64,000 bases of DNA, taken from Enterobacter huaxiensis (GTDB lineage: Bacteria; Pseudomonadota; Gammaproteobacteria; Enterobacterales; Enterobacteriaceae). The stretch is from assembly GCF_003594935.2 (NCBI RefSeq), contig NZ_CP043342.1:2542001-2606000 (forward strand), in the 5' to 3' direction. Every line of letters begins with the position of its first letter. Position 1 is the first letter of the stretch. Position numbers and translations under genes: made by a program. This document shows, piece after piece, positions 27,950-38,426 of this stretch. Under the pieces are notes generated by a model. It did no database searches. It had not been told where the DNA came from and worked only from the letters and a program-made list of their open reading frames with translations.

Positions 27950-28477
27950 TCACGCTTTACGGGTAAAGAAGAGCGTCACCGTGGCGACGGTGACGCCAAA
28001 TTTCTTCATTTCGGTTTTATTAAACAGATGCGTTCCGTCCTGCAGGTACATCCAGTCGTCGAAGTGCAGCAGCCAGGTTTTACCGTCAGCCTTAACGTTC
28101 ATGCTGTAGCGCCAGTTGAAAGCGTTACCCGCCGCCTGGCCGGCGGCGACGCCTTCGATATCGCCAGCCGTCCCTTCATAGCGGTCTGCCGTCACGCGGC
28201 GGATGTGCCAGACGCGCTGCTGTTTTTCGCCATCGTCGTAGACAAAATGTTCGTTGAGGGTCAGCGTATCGCCAATGACATCGCCCGCGATTTCAACGTG
28301 AAAGCGGCGGATCTGCTTCCCGCTGCGATCCTGCACCATGCCCCACGCCTCGGTTTTCCCCTGGAAATAGGTGAAAATGTCCAGCTTCGGCTGCTGCTGA
28401 CGGTACTCCGTTACCTCCGTGCTGCATCCCGCCAGCAGCATCGTCAGGGCAAAAGCCGCGATCATAATTCGTTTCAT
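27950..28477 (-). CDS. DUF3833 lipoprotein, last gene of lipid operon
   Basis: A 175-residue lipoprotein: signal peptide MKRIMIAAFALTMLLAGC with the lipobox LAGC, Cys18. The mature part is a beta-rich DUF3833 domain (FQGKTEAWGMVQDRSGKQIRRFHVEIAGD, WLLHFDDWMYLQDGTHLFNKTEMKKFG), a lipocalin-like layout that may handle lipids. It ends an eight-gene run and overlaps the upstream gene by four bases. Function has not been shown to my knowledge; the role is inferred from neighbours. Confidence 0.8.
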   Translation of the reverse strand: MKRIMIAAFALTMLLAGCSTEVTEYRQQQPKLDIFTYFQGKTEAWGMVQDRSGKQIRRFHVEIAGDVIGDTLTLNEHFVYDDGEKQQRVWHIRRVTADRYEGTAGDIEGVAAGQAAGNAFNWRYSMNVKADGKTWLLHFDDWMYLQDGTHLFNKTEMKKFGVTVATVTLFFTRKA

Positions 28478-28995
28478 TGTTGACCTCCGATCAGCTGCTT
28501 ACGCAGTTCGGGATATTGGGTACGGGGATCGAGCCATATTGCCAGAAAACGCGTGCTGAACGCCGCTGGCTGCGGTGGCCCCAGTGGAGTAAAACCTGAC
28601 TGCGCGGGGGCGCGATACCAGAACTGCCCCTGCCTGTTCTTAAGCACAAACGCCAGCTGTGAACCCGTCGTGACGTTCGGCCAGAGCGTCCCCAGCATCC
28701 GAAGCCACGCTTCGCTCTGCGGCGCTTCCTGCAGAATGCCCTGCGCCCGCCATTGGTCGCGCGTTGCCTCAACCAGCTCCTCGCGGTCGATATCGCGCGC
28801 GTAGGTGATAAGCAGCGCTCGGTCTCCGTTTTCGCCGTCATAACGCCCGTCCGGCGTCAGCAGCTGCGAGGTGTAAACGGTAAAAGGCCCCCAGGTGAGC
28901 GTGGCGCTTCCCACTTTGCGCCAGCCGAGCCAGTCGGCAGCGTGGGCCGTAGAGGTAAACGCGGTAAGACAGATCATCAGCAGAACGGCTCTCAT
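28474..28995 (-). CDS. Chalcone-isomerase-like periplasmic protein
   Basis: A 173-residue protein with a Sec signal peptide (MRAVLLMICLTAFTSTAHA-AD) and a chalcone-isomerase-like core: WRKVGSATLTWGPFTVYTSQLLTPDGRY, ALLITYARDIDREELVEATRDQWRAQG. Bacterial proteins of this fold are not chalcone isomerases; plant relatives bind fatty acids, so a fatty-acid-binding role in the periplasm fits the operon. It overlaps both neighbours by four bases (ATGA-type junctions). Confidence 0.78.
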   Translation of the reverse strand: MRAVLLMICLTAFTSTAHAADWLGWRKVGSATLTWGPFTVYTSQLLTPDGRYDGENGDRALLITYARDIDREELVEATRDQWRAQGILQEAPQSEAWLRMLGTLWPNVTTGSQLAFVLKNRQGQFWYRAPAQSGFTPLGPPQPAAFSTRFLAIWLDPRTQYPELRKQLIGGQQ

Positions 28996-29477
28996 TGTTG
29001 CCTCCCCATCAGCAGGTGGAAAAACAGCATCAATACCAGCCAGCCCGGCGCCATCCAGCTGACGACGATAAAGGTCGGCTCCAGAAACTCAATCGCGCCC
29101 AGCCGTTCACCGATGAGGTAGGCCACCGGCCCGCCCACGGTTGCCAGCAGCGTTAACATCCAGCCCGGTAGCGTTGTGGTTCGCGTCAGCTGGGTCCAGA
29201 CGGTGGCAAACATCAGCCACAGCGCCACCATCCACAGGGGCATGAGGGACGCCCCCGTAAAGGCAATCAGCCCGGTCATTGCCCAGAGGGCGTCAAGCAG
29301 GCTGCCCGCGGCGGCAAGTAAAACGGCGTACAGCCTGTGCGCAGGCGACAGCATCAGGCAGGCCAGGATCGCCAGCGCGAGCCAGATGACCAGCCCCCGC
29401 TCGCGAAACAGCACCACCAGCGTCCAGTAGAGATCGAACGCGATGGCCAGCAGGAAAACCTGCCCATACTGTTTCAT
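28992..29477 (-). CDS. DUF2878 inner-membrane protein
   Basis: A 161-residue polytopic protein with about five to six hydrophobic helices beginning [24 protein letters not shown]. It belongs to DUF2878, a family found next to DUF1365 and cyclopropane-synthase-like genes. The start at 29477 is chosen because it overlaps the preceding stop by four bases, consistent with the other junctions in this operon; the longer frame to 29558 has no such support. Function unknown. Confidence 0.77.
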   Translation of the reverse strand: MKQYGQVFLLAIAFDLYWTLVVLFRERGLVIWLALAILACLMLSPAHRLYAVLLAAAGSLLDALWAMTGLIAFTGASLMPLWMVALWLMFATVWTQLTRTTTLPGWMLTLLATVGGPVAYLIGERLGAIEFLEPTFIVVSWMAPGWLVLMLFFHLLMGRQQ

Positions 29478-30694
29478 ACGCGTTCCGCAGTCAGCTGCAC
29501 CACGCTGATGGTGCGGGCGTTGAACCCGGCTTCGCAGTAGCCAAAGTAGTAGAGCCACATCCGGCGAAAGCGCTCATCAAACCCCAGCGTTTCAATCTCC
29601 TGCCAGGCGTGGACAAAGCGCTGCCGCCAGTGGGCCAGCGTGCGGGCGTAGTCTGGCCCCATATCAAAGAGGTTGCGCACGACAAAATCGGTATGGCGCG
29701 TCATCAGCTCGTTCATCGCGGTAATGCTCGGTAAAAAACCGCCGGGAAAAATGTAGCGCTGGATAAAATCGACGCTTTTGCTGTAGTCGCGGTAGCGCTG
29801 GTCCTGAATGGTGATGGCCTGAATCGCCATGCGTCCACCCGGGCGCAGACGCGCCTGGCAGGTGCGGAAGAACGTCGGGAGATAGTTCTGCCCCACCGCT
29901 TCAATCATCTCAATCGACACCAGCTTGTCGTACTGACCGGTGAGATCGCGATAGTCGCAGAGCAGCACCTCCACGCGGTCCTGCAGCCCGGCGCGAGCGA
30001 TCCGCTCCGTTGCCCAGAGATATTGCTCTTTTGAGAGCGTGGTGGTGGTTACTCTGCAGCCGTAATGGCGGGCGGCATACTCCGCCATCGCGCCCCAGCC
30101 GGTGCCGATTTCCAGCAGATGGTCCTCCGCGCTGAGCGCGAGCTGGTCGCACAGGCGCGCCATTTTTGCCTGCTGGGCCGACGTTAAATCCTGCTCCTCG
30201 GCGGTAAACAAGGCGCTGGAATAGAGCAGCTCCTTGTCCAGAAAATGGGCGTAAAAGGAGTTCCCCAGATCGTAATGGGCGGCGATATTGTCCCGCGCCT
30301 GCGCGCGCGAATTGCGTCGCATCCAGTGGCGCAGACGCTCAACCGGCCTACCGAACAGGCGAAAGCCGTTTTCCAGCCGTCCGAGCACGTCACCGTTGAG
30401 TGCCAGGAGCTGCAGAAGCGGCGTAAGCTGGGCGGTTTCCCACTCGCCGTCCATCCAGGCTTCGGATGCAGCAAGGCTACCGCCCGTTAAGACGCGCCAG
30501 TAAACCCCCGGCGTCAGGACCTGAACATCGGCGTGTAGCGCAGCGGAGGGGTCGCCAAACTGAAAGGTTTGTGCCCCTTCTCGCACGGTAAGCGATCCGC
30601 CTCGGATGCCGCTCAACAGGCGGAAAAGCAGCCAGCGCGCGACGCGAACGTTGCGCGGAATATCGGGTTCAAGCGCAAAGACGGGATCGGTCAT
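29474..30694 (-). CDS. Cyclopropane-fatty-acyl-phospholipid synthase-like methyltransferase
   Basis: A 406-residue SAM-dependent methyltransferase of the CFA synthase family. After an N-terminal domain come [25 protein letters not shown], the SAM motif [44 protein letters not shown] and [11 protein letters not shown], all hallmarks of CFA synthases acting on membrane phospholipid acyl chains. It is not the housekeeping cfa gene by context. Relatives in such operons methylate unsaturated acyl chains without necessarily closing a cyclopropane ring (for example the UfaM step of furan fatty acid synthesis). Overlaps both neighbours by four bases. Confidence 0.85.
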
Positions 30695-31413
30695 GAGCGT
30701 TCACTCCTGCTGACGGGATGGTTATGCAACGGCACGCGCTTGAGCCACAGCCTTAGCGCCTGCCAGTAAATAGCGAAAACGGTTTTGAGCGTCATCAGCG
30801 GGATCCGCACCAGCATCCGCCTCAGCGACGCGCGCGTAAGCGGCTCCCGGCGAAGCGCCAGCGTGGCGTCAAACACCTTTTCGTCCTGATGGTTCTCAAT
30901 ATGCATGTTGAGGGTGTTATCCGGGCTGTTGAAGCGCCAGTGGTAAACCATCTCCATTGGGTTAAACGGCGAGACGTGGAACGCTTTTTCCGTTGGCTGC
31001 GCGTTCTGCCCGTTCACCGCGTAGTAATGCCGCTCGTTCCAGGGCGTATTGCGCACCTCGGCGAGCACCCAGCGCAGGCTCTCTGCCCGGTCATAGCAGT
31101 AGTAAAAATTGACCGGGTTGAAATGAAACCCGAAGTAGCGCAGCTGCGTCAGGAGCATCACGCGCCCGTCGGGACGCTCACCGGTCAGGCTCTCCAGACG
31201 ATCGAGCACGTTCTCCTTTAGCGGCGCGCCCAGCGGGTAATCCGCATCGTAAAACGAGGCGGCGGCAAACCGGTTGCGGCGCACGCCAGCGGCGGGCAGC
31301 GCGTCAAGCTCGTCGAGATCCAGCCAGGCCATGAAGACGGTGTAGGTAAAGTCGTGCGCTTTCGGCTGCAGCCGGCGGTGGCGCAGCGCGCCGTGATAGA
31401 GGCAGCTGTTCAT
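30691..31413 (-). CDS. DUF1365 protein
   Basis: A 240-residue DUF1365 protein: N-terminus [28 protein letters not shown], then [37 protein letters not shown] and [17 protein letters not shown]. The family nearly always accompanies a CFA-type methyltransferase and an FAD oxidoreductase; its chemistry is unknown. The start is placed at 31413, one base after the upstream stop, rather than the longer frame, because the family begins at this Met. The C-terminal helix ([20 protein letters not shown]) is amphipathic or membrane-associated. Confidence 0.83.
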
Positions 31414-31414
31414 C

Positions 31415-32674
31415 TCAGTTGCCCTCCTCTGCCGCCAGACCGTGCACCACGTCCAGCGCGCTGCGCACGCCGTCCTCATGAAAACCGTTGTACCAGTACG
31501 CGCCGCAGAACCAGCTCCGGTTATGGCCGTTGATCTCCCCGCGCCGCGCCTGCGCGCGCCAGCTTTTCGGGTTAAACAGCGGGTGTTCATAGACAAAACG
31601 CTTCAGGACGAAACGTTCATCCACCGGCGTTTCCGGGTTCAGCGTGACGCAGAACAGCGGGCTTCCTGCGGGCAGCCCCTGCAGAATATTCATGTTATAG
31701 GTGACGCAGGCGCTGGCCCGATCCCGCTCGCTCAGCCTGTAGTTCCAGCTCGCCCAGGCGCGCTCGCGCGCCGGCAGCCAGCGTTTGTCGCTGTGCAACA
31801 CCACCTCGTTGCGCTGCCAGCCAATATCCCCCAGCACCTCACGTTCTGCGGGCGTCGGATCGTCCAGCATCGCCAGCGCCTGCCCGGAATGGCAGGCAAA
31901 GATCGCCCGATCGAAGGTGTGGCTGTCGTTGTCCAGCCGGATCGTGACGCCCCGCTCGTCGCGGCTCACCCCCTGCACGGGCGCGTTCAGGCGTAACGTT
32001 ACGCGGTTTCCGAGCTTGTCCAGCATCGCGCGGATGTACTCACGCGATCCGCCGGGCACGACGTACCACTGCGGGCGGTGCGTGACGTCCAGCAGGCCGT
32101 GATGCTCAAAGAAGCGCAGGAAAAGCGGAAGCGGAAAGCGCTTCATCTCCTGCAGCGACGAGGACCAGATGGCCGCCCCCATCGGCAGAATGTAGTGACG
32201 CGCGAAAAACGGCGTAAAACGATGCCGCTCCAGAAAGGTCTGCAGCGTAGCGTTCGGGTCAATCTCCTCCGTCAGCGCCTGTTTTGCCAGGCGATTGAAG
32301 CGCACGATCTCCTTCAGCAGCGTCCAGAACGCCGGATTGAAGATATTTCGCCGCTGAGCAAACAGCGACGTCAGGGTGTGTCCGTTGTACTCCAGCCCGG
32401 TTTTCGGGTTGTGCACCGAAAAGCTCATCTGCGTTTTCTGCCCGCTGATGCCTAACTCGCTCAGCAGGCCCATGAAGCGCGGATAGGTACGGTCGTTGTA
32501 GACGATAAAACCGGTGTCAATAGCGAAGGTTCCCTGCGGCGTGGAGACGTCTACCGTCGCGGTGTGTCCGCCCGGCGTGGCTCCGGCTTCAAACACGGTG
32601 ACCTGATGATGGCCGGCCAGCCGCCAGGCGCAGGTTAACCCGGCAATGCCGCTGCCGATAATGGCGATGTTCAT
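31415..32674 (-). CDS. FAD-dependent oxidoreductase (flavin amine-oxidase/desaturase-like)
   Basis: A 419-residue flavoprotein. The N-terminal dinucleotide motif [19 protein letters not shown] is followed by [16 protein letters not shown]; a second FAD contact lies near the middle ([17 protein letters not shown]). It resembles the amine-oxidase/phytoene-desaturase superfamily members that sit beside DUF1365 and CFA-like genes, and UfaD-type fatty-acid desaturases. It probably oxidises a methylated acyl chain. The four-base overlap with the SDR gene supports operon membership. Confidence 0.83.
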
Positions 32675-33390
32675 GAGCGCACCATCCTGCGCAGGAGCGC
32701 ATTCTGAATAAAGGCCGGGAGTGCTGACAGCAGCCGCAAAATCAGGCCAAAACTGCCGGGAAAGGCGATGTGATTTTTTTCCTTCGCCAGACCGGAACGG
32801 ATCGCCTTCACGGCGTCGTCGACGCTCACCCTACCCGGCATGGCGAAATCATTTTTTTGGGTCAGCGGCGTGTCGACAAAGCCGGGTGAGACGACGGTCA
32901 CGCCGATCCCTTTCGGTTCCCAGTCGAGGCGCAGCGTCTCGGCAAACCAGGTTAAGGCGGCTTTCGACGCGCCGTAGGCTTCGGCTCGCGGGAAGTGCAG
33001 CCAGTGCGCCATCGAGCTGACGATGACCACGCGATTCCCCGCCGCCAGCTGCAGCTGCAGTGCGGCAAGACAGTTAACCGGGCCGAGGAAATTGGTGTTC
33101 ATTACCCTCTCCACCAGCGCGGCATCTACGTCGCCGTGGTTGAGGTATTCGCAGGTTCCGGCGCAGAGGATAACGACGTCGGCGTAGCACCCCGTCAGCG
33201 CCTGGCGACAGGCGTCCCTGTCCGTAATGTCGAACAGGCGAACCGTGACGTTCGGGCTGTGCTGGTGCAGGGCTTCAAGACGCGCCGGGTCACGCCCGCA
33301 GGCAATGACGTGATAGCCGTCATCCGCATAGGACCTCGCCAGCCCGGCGCCAATGCCGGAACTCGCGCCGGTAATCAGTACGGTTTTCAT
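32671..33390 (-). CDS. Short-chain dehydrogenase/reductase
   Basis: A 239-residue SDR: cofactor motif TGASSGIGAGLARSYA, the catalytic Ser in VIVSSMAHW, the YxxxK motif in AYGASKAALTWFAETLRL, and VVSPGFVDTPL. Arg/Asp pattern after the first beta strands suggests NADP(H) or NAD(H) but cannot be settled by eye. It is the second gene of the operon, overlapping both neighbours by four bases. Substrate is inferred to be lipid-derived. Confidence 0.85.
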   Translation of the reverse strand: MKTVLITGASSGIGAGLARSYADDGYHVIACGRDPARLEALHQHSPNVTVRLFDITDRDACRQALTGCYADVVILCAGTCEYLNHGDVDAALVERVMNTNFLGPVNCLAALQLQLAAGNRVVIVSSMAHWLHFPRAEAYGASKAALTWFAETLRLDWEPKGIGVTVVSPGFVDTPLTQKNDFAMPGRVSVDDAVKAIRSGLAKEKNHIAFPGSFGLILRLLSALPAFIQNALLRRMVRS

Positions 33391-33821
33391 GATTTCACCC
33401 TGCGCTTCACGCCGCGTACCGCCCAGCCGAGCACGGGAAGATGTTCATAGATCATCTCTCCAGCGTCGTAATAGTCCCGCTGGCGCACAATCAAATCGTT
33501 TTCCGTGTCCACCACGGAACAGCCCGGCAGCTCAAGCGGATCTCCCCCGGCAATGCGCGGATGCGACCAGTGCATCGTCCATGTGACGACAAAACGGCTG
33601 TCGCCACTCAGCGGGGGGTCGATGGAAAAGCGGCAGTTGTCCACGTTAGCCAGCAGATGGGTAAAGTAGCGCTGGAGCGCAAACAGCCCGTGATGCTCAC
33701 CGAAGGGATCGATAAGCGTGGCGTCAGGGTGGTAAAGCCCTGCCAGCGCCGACGGTGGCTGGGCATCCAGCGCGGCGTAGTAATCAAAAAACCGACTGAC
33801 GACGGAGGGCAACATGCTCAT
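33387..33821 (-). CDS. SnoaL/NTF2-like protein, first gene of lipid operon
   Basis: A 144-residue NTF2-like cone-fold protein: FFDYYAALDAQPPSALAGLYHPDATLIDPFGEHHGLFALQRYFTHLL, then WTMHWSHPRIAGG. Such domains bind small hydrophobic ligands or act as isomerases or hydratases; no clear catalytic assignment is possible. It is the promoter-proximal gene of the eight-gene operon, overlaps the SDR gene by four bases, and has a GGATG ribosome-binding site before ATG 33821. In other proteobacteria this operon often follows an ECF sigma factor and ChrR; neither is present here. Confidence 0.78.
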   Translation of the reverse strand: MSMLPSVVSRFFDYYAALDAQPPSALAGLYHPDATLIDPFGEHHGLFALQRYFTHLLANVDNCRFSIDPPLSGDSRFVVTWTMHWSHPRIAGGDPLELPGCSVVDTENDLIVRQRDYYDAGEMIYEHLPVLGWAVRGVKRRVKS

Positions 33822-33899
33822 GGGTCACATCCTGGCTGTAAACAACGTGGCGTAATCGCATAATTAAAACTTACACAATCACCGTTATTTGTCCAAATT

Positions 33900-34278: not shown

Positions 34279-35052
34279 ATGGGAACGGCGATATTTATGG
34301 TGCTGATGGTGTGCGGGTACTGGTATACCAGCCGCGACCTCTCGACGCGGTTTAAAATTAAGCGTTCCTTCGGCTGGGACGTGTATTTCCTCGTCGCGCT
34401 TTATGGCTGTATTTTCGTTTTACAGGGCGTGATCGCCACCGGCCTCCTCTGGCTGCTGCTGTTTGCGCTTTCAGCCGCGGACAATACTTTTCACTTTACC
34501 TCGCAGAAATATGCCGACTGGCAGATAGATTTCATGAACTGGAGTTTCCTGGGGATCCAGGCGCCGGTAGTGGTGATGCTGGCCTTCGCCATTCTGTTCT
34601 GTCTCTATCGTTCTAACTGGGCGGGCAGCGCGAGGCTCGACGGCGAGGGCCGGAAAAAACTCTACAAGCGCCTGGCGCAATCAAGCGGCATTGAACAGCT
34701 CCTTTACCAGTGCATGGAGCAAGGGGAGCTGGCGCAGGTGGCGCTGAGGTCTCGGCGAATCTATGTCGGCATGATCCATACCGCCACGCTGGAATATGAA
34801 AAGACGGCCAATATCGTGCTGATCCCGATGCTAAGCGGCTATCGCGATGAAAAAACGATGAATCTGCGCATCGAAAATAACTACAGCAGGTGGTACCACG
34901 AGCATGACATCACGCTTGATTCGGATCCCCGGAGCGCCATGGACTTCCGCAGAGTCATCTTGCTCAATCAGATTGAGAGTATTTCGCTGTTCGACCCCGC
35001 CAGCGCCAGCGCGCTGGAGATGGCGCCGGAGGAGGACAACGACGAGCGGTAG
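34279..35052 (+). CDS. Hypothetical inner-membrane protein
   Basis: A 257-residue protein with three predicted membrane segments (about residues 2-15, 31-58 and 90-112) and a roughly 140-residue soluble C-terminal part, mostly polar, ending in acidic APEEDNDER. The soluble part contains LYQCMEQGELAQVALRSRRIYVGMIH and IVLIPMLSGYRDEKT. I do not recognise the family. It is coupled to the small gene upstream and converges on the DUF1272 gene, separated by one base. Confidence 0.65.
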   Translation: MGTAIFMVLMVCGYWYTSRDLSTRFKIKRSFGWDVYFLVALYGCIFVLQGVIATGLLWLLLFALSAADNTFHFTSQKYADWQIDFMNWSFLGIQAPVVVMLAFAILFCLYRSNWAGSARLDGEGRKKLYKRLAQSSGIEQLLYQCMEQGELAQVALRSRRIYVGMIHTATLEYEKTANIVLIPMLSGYRDEKTMNLRIENNYSRWYHEHDITLDSDPRSAMDFRRVILLNQIESISLFDPASASALEMAPEEDNDER

Positions 35053-37748: not shown

Positions 37749-38426
37749 ATGAAAAAAACAGCCCCAGAATATACCCCTGTTGACCTATCCCGCTGGGCAA
37801 GAAAGGAGCATTTCGAGGTCTTTCAGTCTTTTGCGCAATGCACGTTCAGCCAGACCGTTCAGTTAGACATTACCGGGCTGCTAAAAAATACAAAAAAGTT
37901 TGGCTGGAAATTTTACCCTACAATAATTTTTCTCCTTTCACAGGCTGTGAACCGGCATGCTGAATTCCGTATGGCCATGAAGGATGGTGAACTTATAGTC
38001 TGGAATGAAGTCCACCCCAGCTACACCATTTTCCATAATGAGACGGAAACGTTCTCATCCTTATGGAGCCCTTATGATGGCAATATTCTCCACTTCCTGG
38101 ACGCCTATTCAGCAGACGTTGCCCGCTATGGCAACAACGTTGCTTACTGGCCGAAGGGCGAGTCTCCGGAAAATATATTTTTCGTATCGGCTATCCCCTG
38201 GGTAAGTTTTACCAGTTTTGATACCAACGTCGCGAAGATGCAGAATTTTTTCACCCCCATGTTTACGCTTGGGAAATACGTTGAGCAGGAGGGGAAAATA
38301 CTGTTGCCACTCGCCGTTCTTGTCCATCACTCCGTGTGCGACGGTTTCCATGTGGCGAGAATGATCAACGAGTTACAAGAGACATGCCATGATCTGCTGA
38401 AGCATTTAGACGAACTCAATGCCTGA
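37749..38426 (+). CDS. catA: Type A chloramphenicol O-acetyltransferase
   Basis: A 225-residue protein of CAT length. The active-site motif [18 protein letters not shown] places the catalytic His at residue 193/194; other family features are [48 protein letters not shown] and the [13 protein letters not shown] segment. It acetylates chloramphenicol at the 3-hydroxyl with acetyl-CoA. The gene is flanked by chromosomal genes with no transposase, integron or plasmid marker, so it looks like an intrinsic chromosomal cat. The surrounding bases are more AT-rich than the backbone. The subtype number cannot be given. Confidence 0.9.

Follow-up and report, generated by a model that had tools for sequence, protein, structure and literature searches.

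An operon in the Enterobacter huaxiensis genome (NZ_CP043342.1) encodes what look like lipid-modifying enzymes, and it raises two linked questions, namely what its products make and what switches it on. An earlier note on the stretch analyzed here (the window, 64,000 nucleotides) had proposed that the operon makes a modified membrane acyl chain, that its last two products handle lipid in the envelope, and that the loss of a usual ECF sigma/ChrR head implies new control. We address these questions in turn; positions without a prefix are those of the window, and those prefixed C1 are those of the genome.

Operon structure and conservation

The operon occupies 27950-33821 on the minus strand, with all eight open reading frames present as the earlier note had described them, and six of the seven junctions are indeed 4-base ATGA overlaps, the FAD/DUF1365 junction being a 1-base gap. 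From its first gene onward it encodes an NTF2/SnoaL-like protein (33387-33821; PF12680, E 6.6e-19), an SDR-family oxidoreductase (32671-33390; PF00106, E 1.2e-37), a UfaD-like FAD oxidoreductase predicted to desaturate a methylated acyl chain (31415-32674; PF01593/PF13450, at the ufaD position of ufaD-ufaO-ufaM, PMC7380195), a UfaO-like DUF1365 protein predicted to be a furan-forming oxygenase (30691-31413; PF07103, E 6e-85), a UfaM-like member of the CFA-like SAM methyltransferases predicted to methylate an acyl chain (29474-30694; PF02353, E 1.9e-85), a DUF2878 membrane protein (28992-29477; PF11086, E 2.6e-22), a chalcone-isomerase-fold secreted protein (28474-28995), and a DUF3833 lipoprotein with a lipocalin-like beta barrel (27950-28477; PF12915, E 1.3e-65). 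Pfam returned the family names assigned earlier (SnoaL_2/NTF2, adh_short, Amino_oxidase/NAD_binding_8, DUF1365, CMAS, DUF2878 and DUF3833). The window's own chalcone-isomerase-like protein falls below the Pfam cut-off (E 0.1); that name is carried by two operon orthologs above the cut-off and by an AlphaFold model with chalcone-isomerase-fold matches.

The operon is not a chance arrangement, since the same gene order recurs in dozens of genera and each operon gene tested shows purifying selection against a close Enterobacter (dN/dS 0.04-0.26). Among named relatives E. wuhouensis is the closest, with 96% identity for the FAD protein and 98% for the CFA-like protein. A search of 20,395 E. coli records and of phages gave no match. 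Next to the operon, a plus-strand reading frame (34279-35052) encodes a 257-aa predicted membrane protein with no Pfam match, in a flank common to Enterobacter relatives, and a further plus-strand reading frame (37749-38426) resembles, by eye only, a type A chloramphenicol acetyltransferase.

A predicted furan-fatty-acid pathway

In the FAD-DUF1365-CFA-like core the genes follow one another as ufaD, ufaO and ufaM do in the proven furan-fatty-acid set, an order that we found in essentially every examined locus and that is also that of R. palustris (PMC7380195, PMC12089945), and predicted counterparts of UfaD (FAD), UfaO (DUF1365) and UfaM (CFA-like SAM methylase) are encoded together. UfaO contains DUF1365, and in R. 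sphaeroides UfaM, UfaD and UfaO suffice for the furan product. Halomonas carries a consecutive ufaD/O/M set, and its UfaM yielded an 11-methyl-octadecenoate in E. coli. Family, order and residues lead us to predict that the Enterobacter trio corresponds to UfaM, UfaD and UfaO.

Two other products were weighed. The CFA-like protein belongs to the CMAS family and has E. coli Cfa as its closest solved structure, as would be expected if the gene encoded a second cyclopropane synthase within a redundant cyclopropane-lipid operon. True Cfa, however, relies on a bicarbonate, held by Glu239, His266 and Tyr317, to deprotonate the intermediate and close the cyclopropane (PMC11387697), and this ligand set is incomplete here: across 153 operon-type CFA-like proteins the Glu and Tyr ligands are invariant, but His266 is replaced by Gln in 152 and Cys139 by Ser in 136. 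The genome's bona fide Cfa, encoded elsewhere, has both canonical residues (His266 and Cys139), and the window's protein scores 275 bits, far below the 400-bit NCBIfam Cfa cut-off, so that a cyclopropane product seems very improbable. The replacement of His266 fits, without proving, a methylating enzyme that does not close the ring. A second alternative, which we consider unlikely though less so, is that the pathway ends at or diverges to some other modified chain (methyl-branched, methyl-diene or another oxygenated lipid), with the SDR and NTF2 proteins altering the product; the NTF2 and SDR genes do precede the D-O-M trio throughout the lineage, and R. sphaeroides requires UfaM, UfaD and UfaO alone. 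Yet the DUF1365 (UfaO) gene is itself under purifying selection (dN/dS 0.11-0.15), and R. sphaeroides forms the furan product without the three further genes of its ufaD operon. The earlier proposal of acyl-chain modification is therefore upheld, with a furan fatty acid as the most likely product on the sequence evidence.

For the last two products the evidence comes from folds. The chalcone-isomerase-like protein begins with a signal-like sequence ending AHA-AD, and a Foldseek search with its model (pLDDT 83) matched chalcone isomerases together with the fatty-acid-binding AtFAP3; the DUF3833 protein carries a lipobox (LAGC) with an invariant Cys18, and its model (pLDDT 91) matched fatty-acid-binding-protein-like, nitrobindin and lipocalin folds. 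A chalcone-isomerase fold that includes AtFAP3, alongside a lipocalin/FABP-like barrel with a lipobox, makes the suggested lipid handling in the envelope reasonable at the level of fold.

ChrR as a minority head

The observation that the operon lacks an ECF/ChrR head is correct. There is no ECF/ChrR pair upstream, ChrR (TIGR02451) has no match in the genome, and its sigma genes, whose neighbors were inspected for all but one 198-aa ECF (C1:2399765), comprise SigK-like and other ECF/anti-sigma pairs, none of them with ChrR; a sigma factor with ChrR was thus found neither at the head nor elsewhere. A Cupin_7 match at C1:912255 was rejected as ChrR, being a standalone cupin of about 110 aa that adjoins a Wzz-like gene.

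The idea that such a pair normally heads these operons and has gone missing here did not survive a wider sample. None of the 295 family genomes sampled, which include 34 with DUF1365, had ChrR over cut-off; in the class sample 15 of 369 did. All 15 carry DUF1365, linked to the ChrR gene in 14, and they make up 15 of the 114 DUF1365 carriers in the gammaproteobacterial sample. ChrR is therefore a real but minority head, and no loss need be invoked. The lineage's own head is a MerR regulator, so the part of the earlier claim that stands is new control, read here as predicted regulation in trans by an MlrA-like MerR that Enterobacter has retained, and the part that falls is its origin in ECF/ChrR loss.

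A MerR regulator left at the old site

Of the 34 family loci, 30 have an MlrA-like MerR gene upstream in the same orientation. The window genome encodes a 241-aa ortholog with 81% identity at C1:87316-88041 or, by another delimitation, C1:87322-88041, approximately 2.5 million bases from the operon. Its Pfam domains are MerR_1, MlrA_helical (PF22270, E 1.6e-27) and MlrA_C (PF22267, E 4e-21), which place it in the MlrA family, and the Pfam search found no B12-binding domain of the LitR/CarH kind; a LitR-like neighbor in another gammaproteobacterium does carry B12-binding_2. Of the PDB structures that match the regulator's DNA-binding domain, CarH ranks second (E 5.8e-12 over the HTH).

Gene order connects this distant regulator with the operon. 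Most relatives, Buttiauxella, Kosakonia, Klebsiella and Citrobacter among them, have an unbroken run of MerR, operator, the eight genes and then, as a ninth gene, RudS, a tRNA 4-thiouridine desulfidase with a link to near-UV stress; HiuH sometimes comes after MerR. In the window genome the MerR site reads Blc-MerR-HiuH-operator-RudS. Synteny thus indicates that in Enterobacter the eight-gene operon moved, and that the MerR ortholog and RudS stayed at the old site; the operon now sits elsewhere with its own operator and with flanks shared among relatives, so the move is old. Vibrionaceae relatives are mostly arranged RudS-MerR-NTF2-SDR-D-O-M, and in a tree of the concatenated trio the enteric clade sits next to these MerR-headed Vibrionaceae, while loci headed by ChrR fall outside. 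The MerR ortholog is present in 19/19 close-clade genomes with the operon vs. 18/276 others (Fisher 5e-20, a count that ignores relatedness and treats related genomes as independent), and 16 of the 17 genomes with MerR and no operon have MerR-operator-RudS. In the more distant clade, Pectobacterium loci (L073, L077, L285, L286 and others) also contain NTF2-SDR-D-O-M, with neither MerR nor operator nearby and with the last three genes undetectable.

Plasmids NZ_CP140427.1 (L314) and NZ_CP055164.1 (L315) also carry the MerR-uraH-RudS-AAA ATPase block found on the Enterobacter chromosome; in these two inspected plasmids it lies near IS26 and without the lipid genes. At 80-95% identity the MerR is present in approximately 96 plasmid records, with best matches in E. 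coli, Shigella, Klebsiella, Enterobacter, Citrobacter and Salmonella.

A shared operator-like dyad

A predicted MerR/LitR-type operator, ATTTGGACAA-N10-TTGTGTAAGT (core TGGACA-N12-TGTGTA), lies at 33869-33898 on the minus strand, 48 bp upstream of the first start codon. Across the close clade the dyad ACTTGKACAA-N10-TTGTnYAAGT (core TGKACA-N12-TGTnYA) is conserved before the NTF2 gene, and in the more distant clade, whose operons start with MerR, the region upstream of that gene holds a near-perfect ACTTGTACAA-N11-TTGTACAAGT dyad that varies slightly and has a core spacing of N13 rather than the N12 of the window. With a profile built without any Enterobacter sequence, the window site was the best in 64 kb (score 35.3 vs. 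at most 11.8 in 60 Markov controls). The 5.04-Mb genome contains exactly two zero-mismatch consensus sites, one upstream of the operon and one upstream of RudS (C1:86732-86761); since the pattern was drawn up with knowledge of both, this count speaks to exclusivity and not to discovery. Only these two perfect sites were used, because at up to 3 mismatches there were 26 matches vs. 68 in a reversed-pattern control. A simple scan for a sigma-70 promoter at the operator recognized none, and a perfect 7-bp inverted repeat just upstream of it (TGTTGGT/ACCAACA, 33928-33900) was set aside as absent in relatives.

The spacing of the dyad core equals that of class II LitR operators, T(G/A)TACA-N12-TGTA(C/T)A, where LitR is a repressor of light-inducible genes and its light-inducible cluster in Pseudomonas includes ufaM, SDR and FAD genes (PMC9758184). 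The genome combines a CarH-type MerR HTH with an operator of the TGTACA-N12-TGTACA kind, the window's half-sites deviating from TGTACA.

Proposed mechanism and inducing signal

From what the genomes hold directly (gene content and order, a conserved operator-like dyad, the presence of the regulator and synteny) we infer product, repression and inducing signal, and consider it likely that the furan-lipid operon and RudS are under one MlrA-like MerR repressor that acts in trans and is derepressible by photo-oxidative stress or near-UV. The operon would turn a monounsaturated chain on a phospholipid into a methylated furan fatty acid. In this scheme the UfaM-like enzyme would methylate the double-bond carbon, the UfaD-like FAD enzyme would desaturate the methylated chain, and the DUF1365 protein would insert O2-derived oxygen to close the furan; the last two products, a chalcone-isomerase-fold protein and a lipocalin-like lipoprotein, probably bind or move the lipid or its oxidation products in the envelope. 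The MlrA-like MerR (C1:87316-88041) is predicted to repress the operon from the dyad at 33869-33898 and would also control RudS, with light/near-UV or photo-oxidative stress relieving both.

The identity of the regulator and the nature of the signal each admit an alternative. Two further MlrA-like paralogs (37-41% identity) are encoded in the genome, and one of them, BluR-like and beside a BLUF gene (C1:2784176-2784871), has an operator-like site with 2 mismatches at its start, so that control by MlrA itself, by this paralog or by no MerR at all can be imagined; we think it rather improbable, as the 81% ortholog keeps the ancestral Blc-MerR-HiuH-RudS neighborhood with the same operator type at RudS, and presence of the operon implies that ortholog in 19/19 genomes. 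The signal is less clear-cut. Published work links RudS genes to light-responsive operons and notes a MerR-RudS pair in E. cloacae (PMC11417400), which makes near-UV, blue light or photo-oxidative stress the most likely inducer on our analysis. MlrA paralogs of Salmonella act on curli genes, however, so the signal need not be light, and an MlrA-type signal such as c-di-GMP is possible. That c-di-GMP, envelope stress or chemical oxidative stress is the inducer, with the protein acting in the manner of Salmonella MlrB or E. coli MlrA, is a competitor of some substance, if not the favored one: the regulator has MlrA_helical and MlrA_C domains without a B12-binding domain, and MlrB and BrfS act on curli genes. 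Against this, light-responsive loci of other bacteria include both RudS and this type of operator, and the genome encodes three BLUF proteins. The BLUF-linked paralog follows a BLUF-EAL gene as a BluF/BluR-like pair (L199:740-2907; G000:C1 about 2784150-2786320), and its operator-like site is weak.

A role as membrane antioxidants and scavengers has been proposed for furan fatty acids. If the proposed repressor circuit is correct, common enteric genera own an inducible membrane antioxidant, tied to tRNA thiouridine removal by one operator type. It would also supply a possible mechanism for the adaptation to UVA that has been reported for E. cloacae (cited in PMC11417400), and would mean that a "missing" regulator is findable via its operator after the gene neighborhood has been broken. 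More speculatively, and with less confidence than for the circuit itself, a B12-independent MlrA-type repressor gated by BLUF or another partner might, in response to blue light or near-UV, co-induce furan-lipid antioxidant synthesis and tRNA 4-thiouridine removal across Enterobacteriaceae, including Klebsiella and Enterobacter. In the literature searched we found no report of furan fatty acids in Enterobacteriaceae and no enteric description of a blue-light/near-UV regulon joining both outputs.

Comparison with known systems

The nearest biochemical precedents are the ufaM/ufaD/ufaO systems of R. sphaeroides, R. palustris and Halomonas, which use the same three families, in R. palustris in the same D-O-M order (PMC7380195, PMC12089945). 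In contrast with these, the Enterobacter trio sits inside an eight-gene operon with SDR, NTF2, DUF2878, chalcone-isomerase-fold and DUF3833 genes and lacks RpoE/ChrR control. The rpoE-chrR singlet-oxygen operons resemble it in that, of the 15 class genomes with ChrR, 14 have it linked to a DUF1365 gene, and differ in that ChrR is absent from the window genome and, over cut-off, from 295/295 family genomes.

MerR-type (LitR) control of ufa genes has already been published for Pseudomonas (PMC9758184), where the class II LitR (PplR/PmlR) ufaM-phrB cluster has a MerR regulator, a TGTACA-N12-TGTACA operator and SDR, FAD and UfaM genes. The Enterobacter regulator is, however, MlrA-type without B12-binding_2 and unlinked, the Enterobacter cluster contains no photolyase, and RudS is the partner target. 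Finally, the RudS (TudS-DUF1722) loci beside MerR in Enterobacter cloacae and Salmonella show the same MerR-RudS neighborhood and come with a light-response proposal (PMC11417400); DUF1365 or cyclopropane-type genes are not mentioned there, whereas here one operator type joins RudS with a predicted furan-lipid operon.
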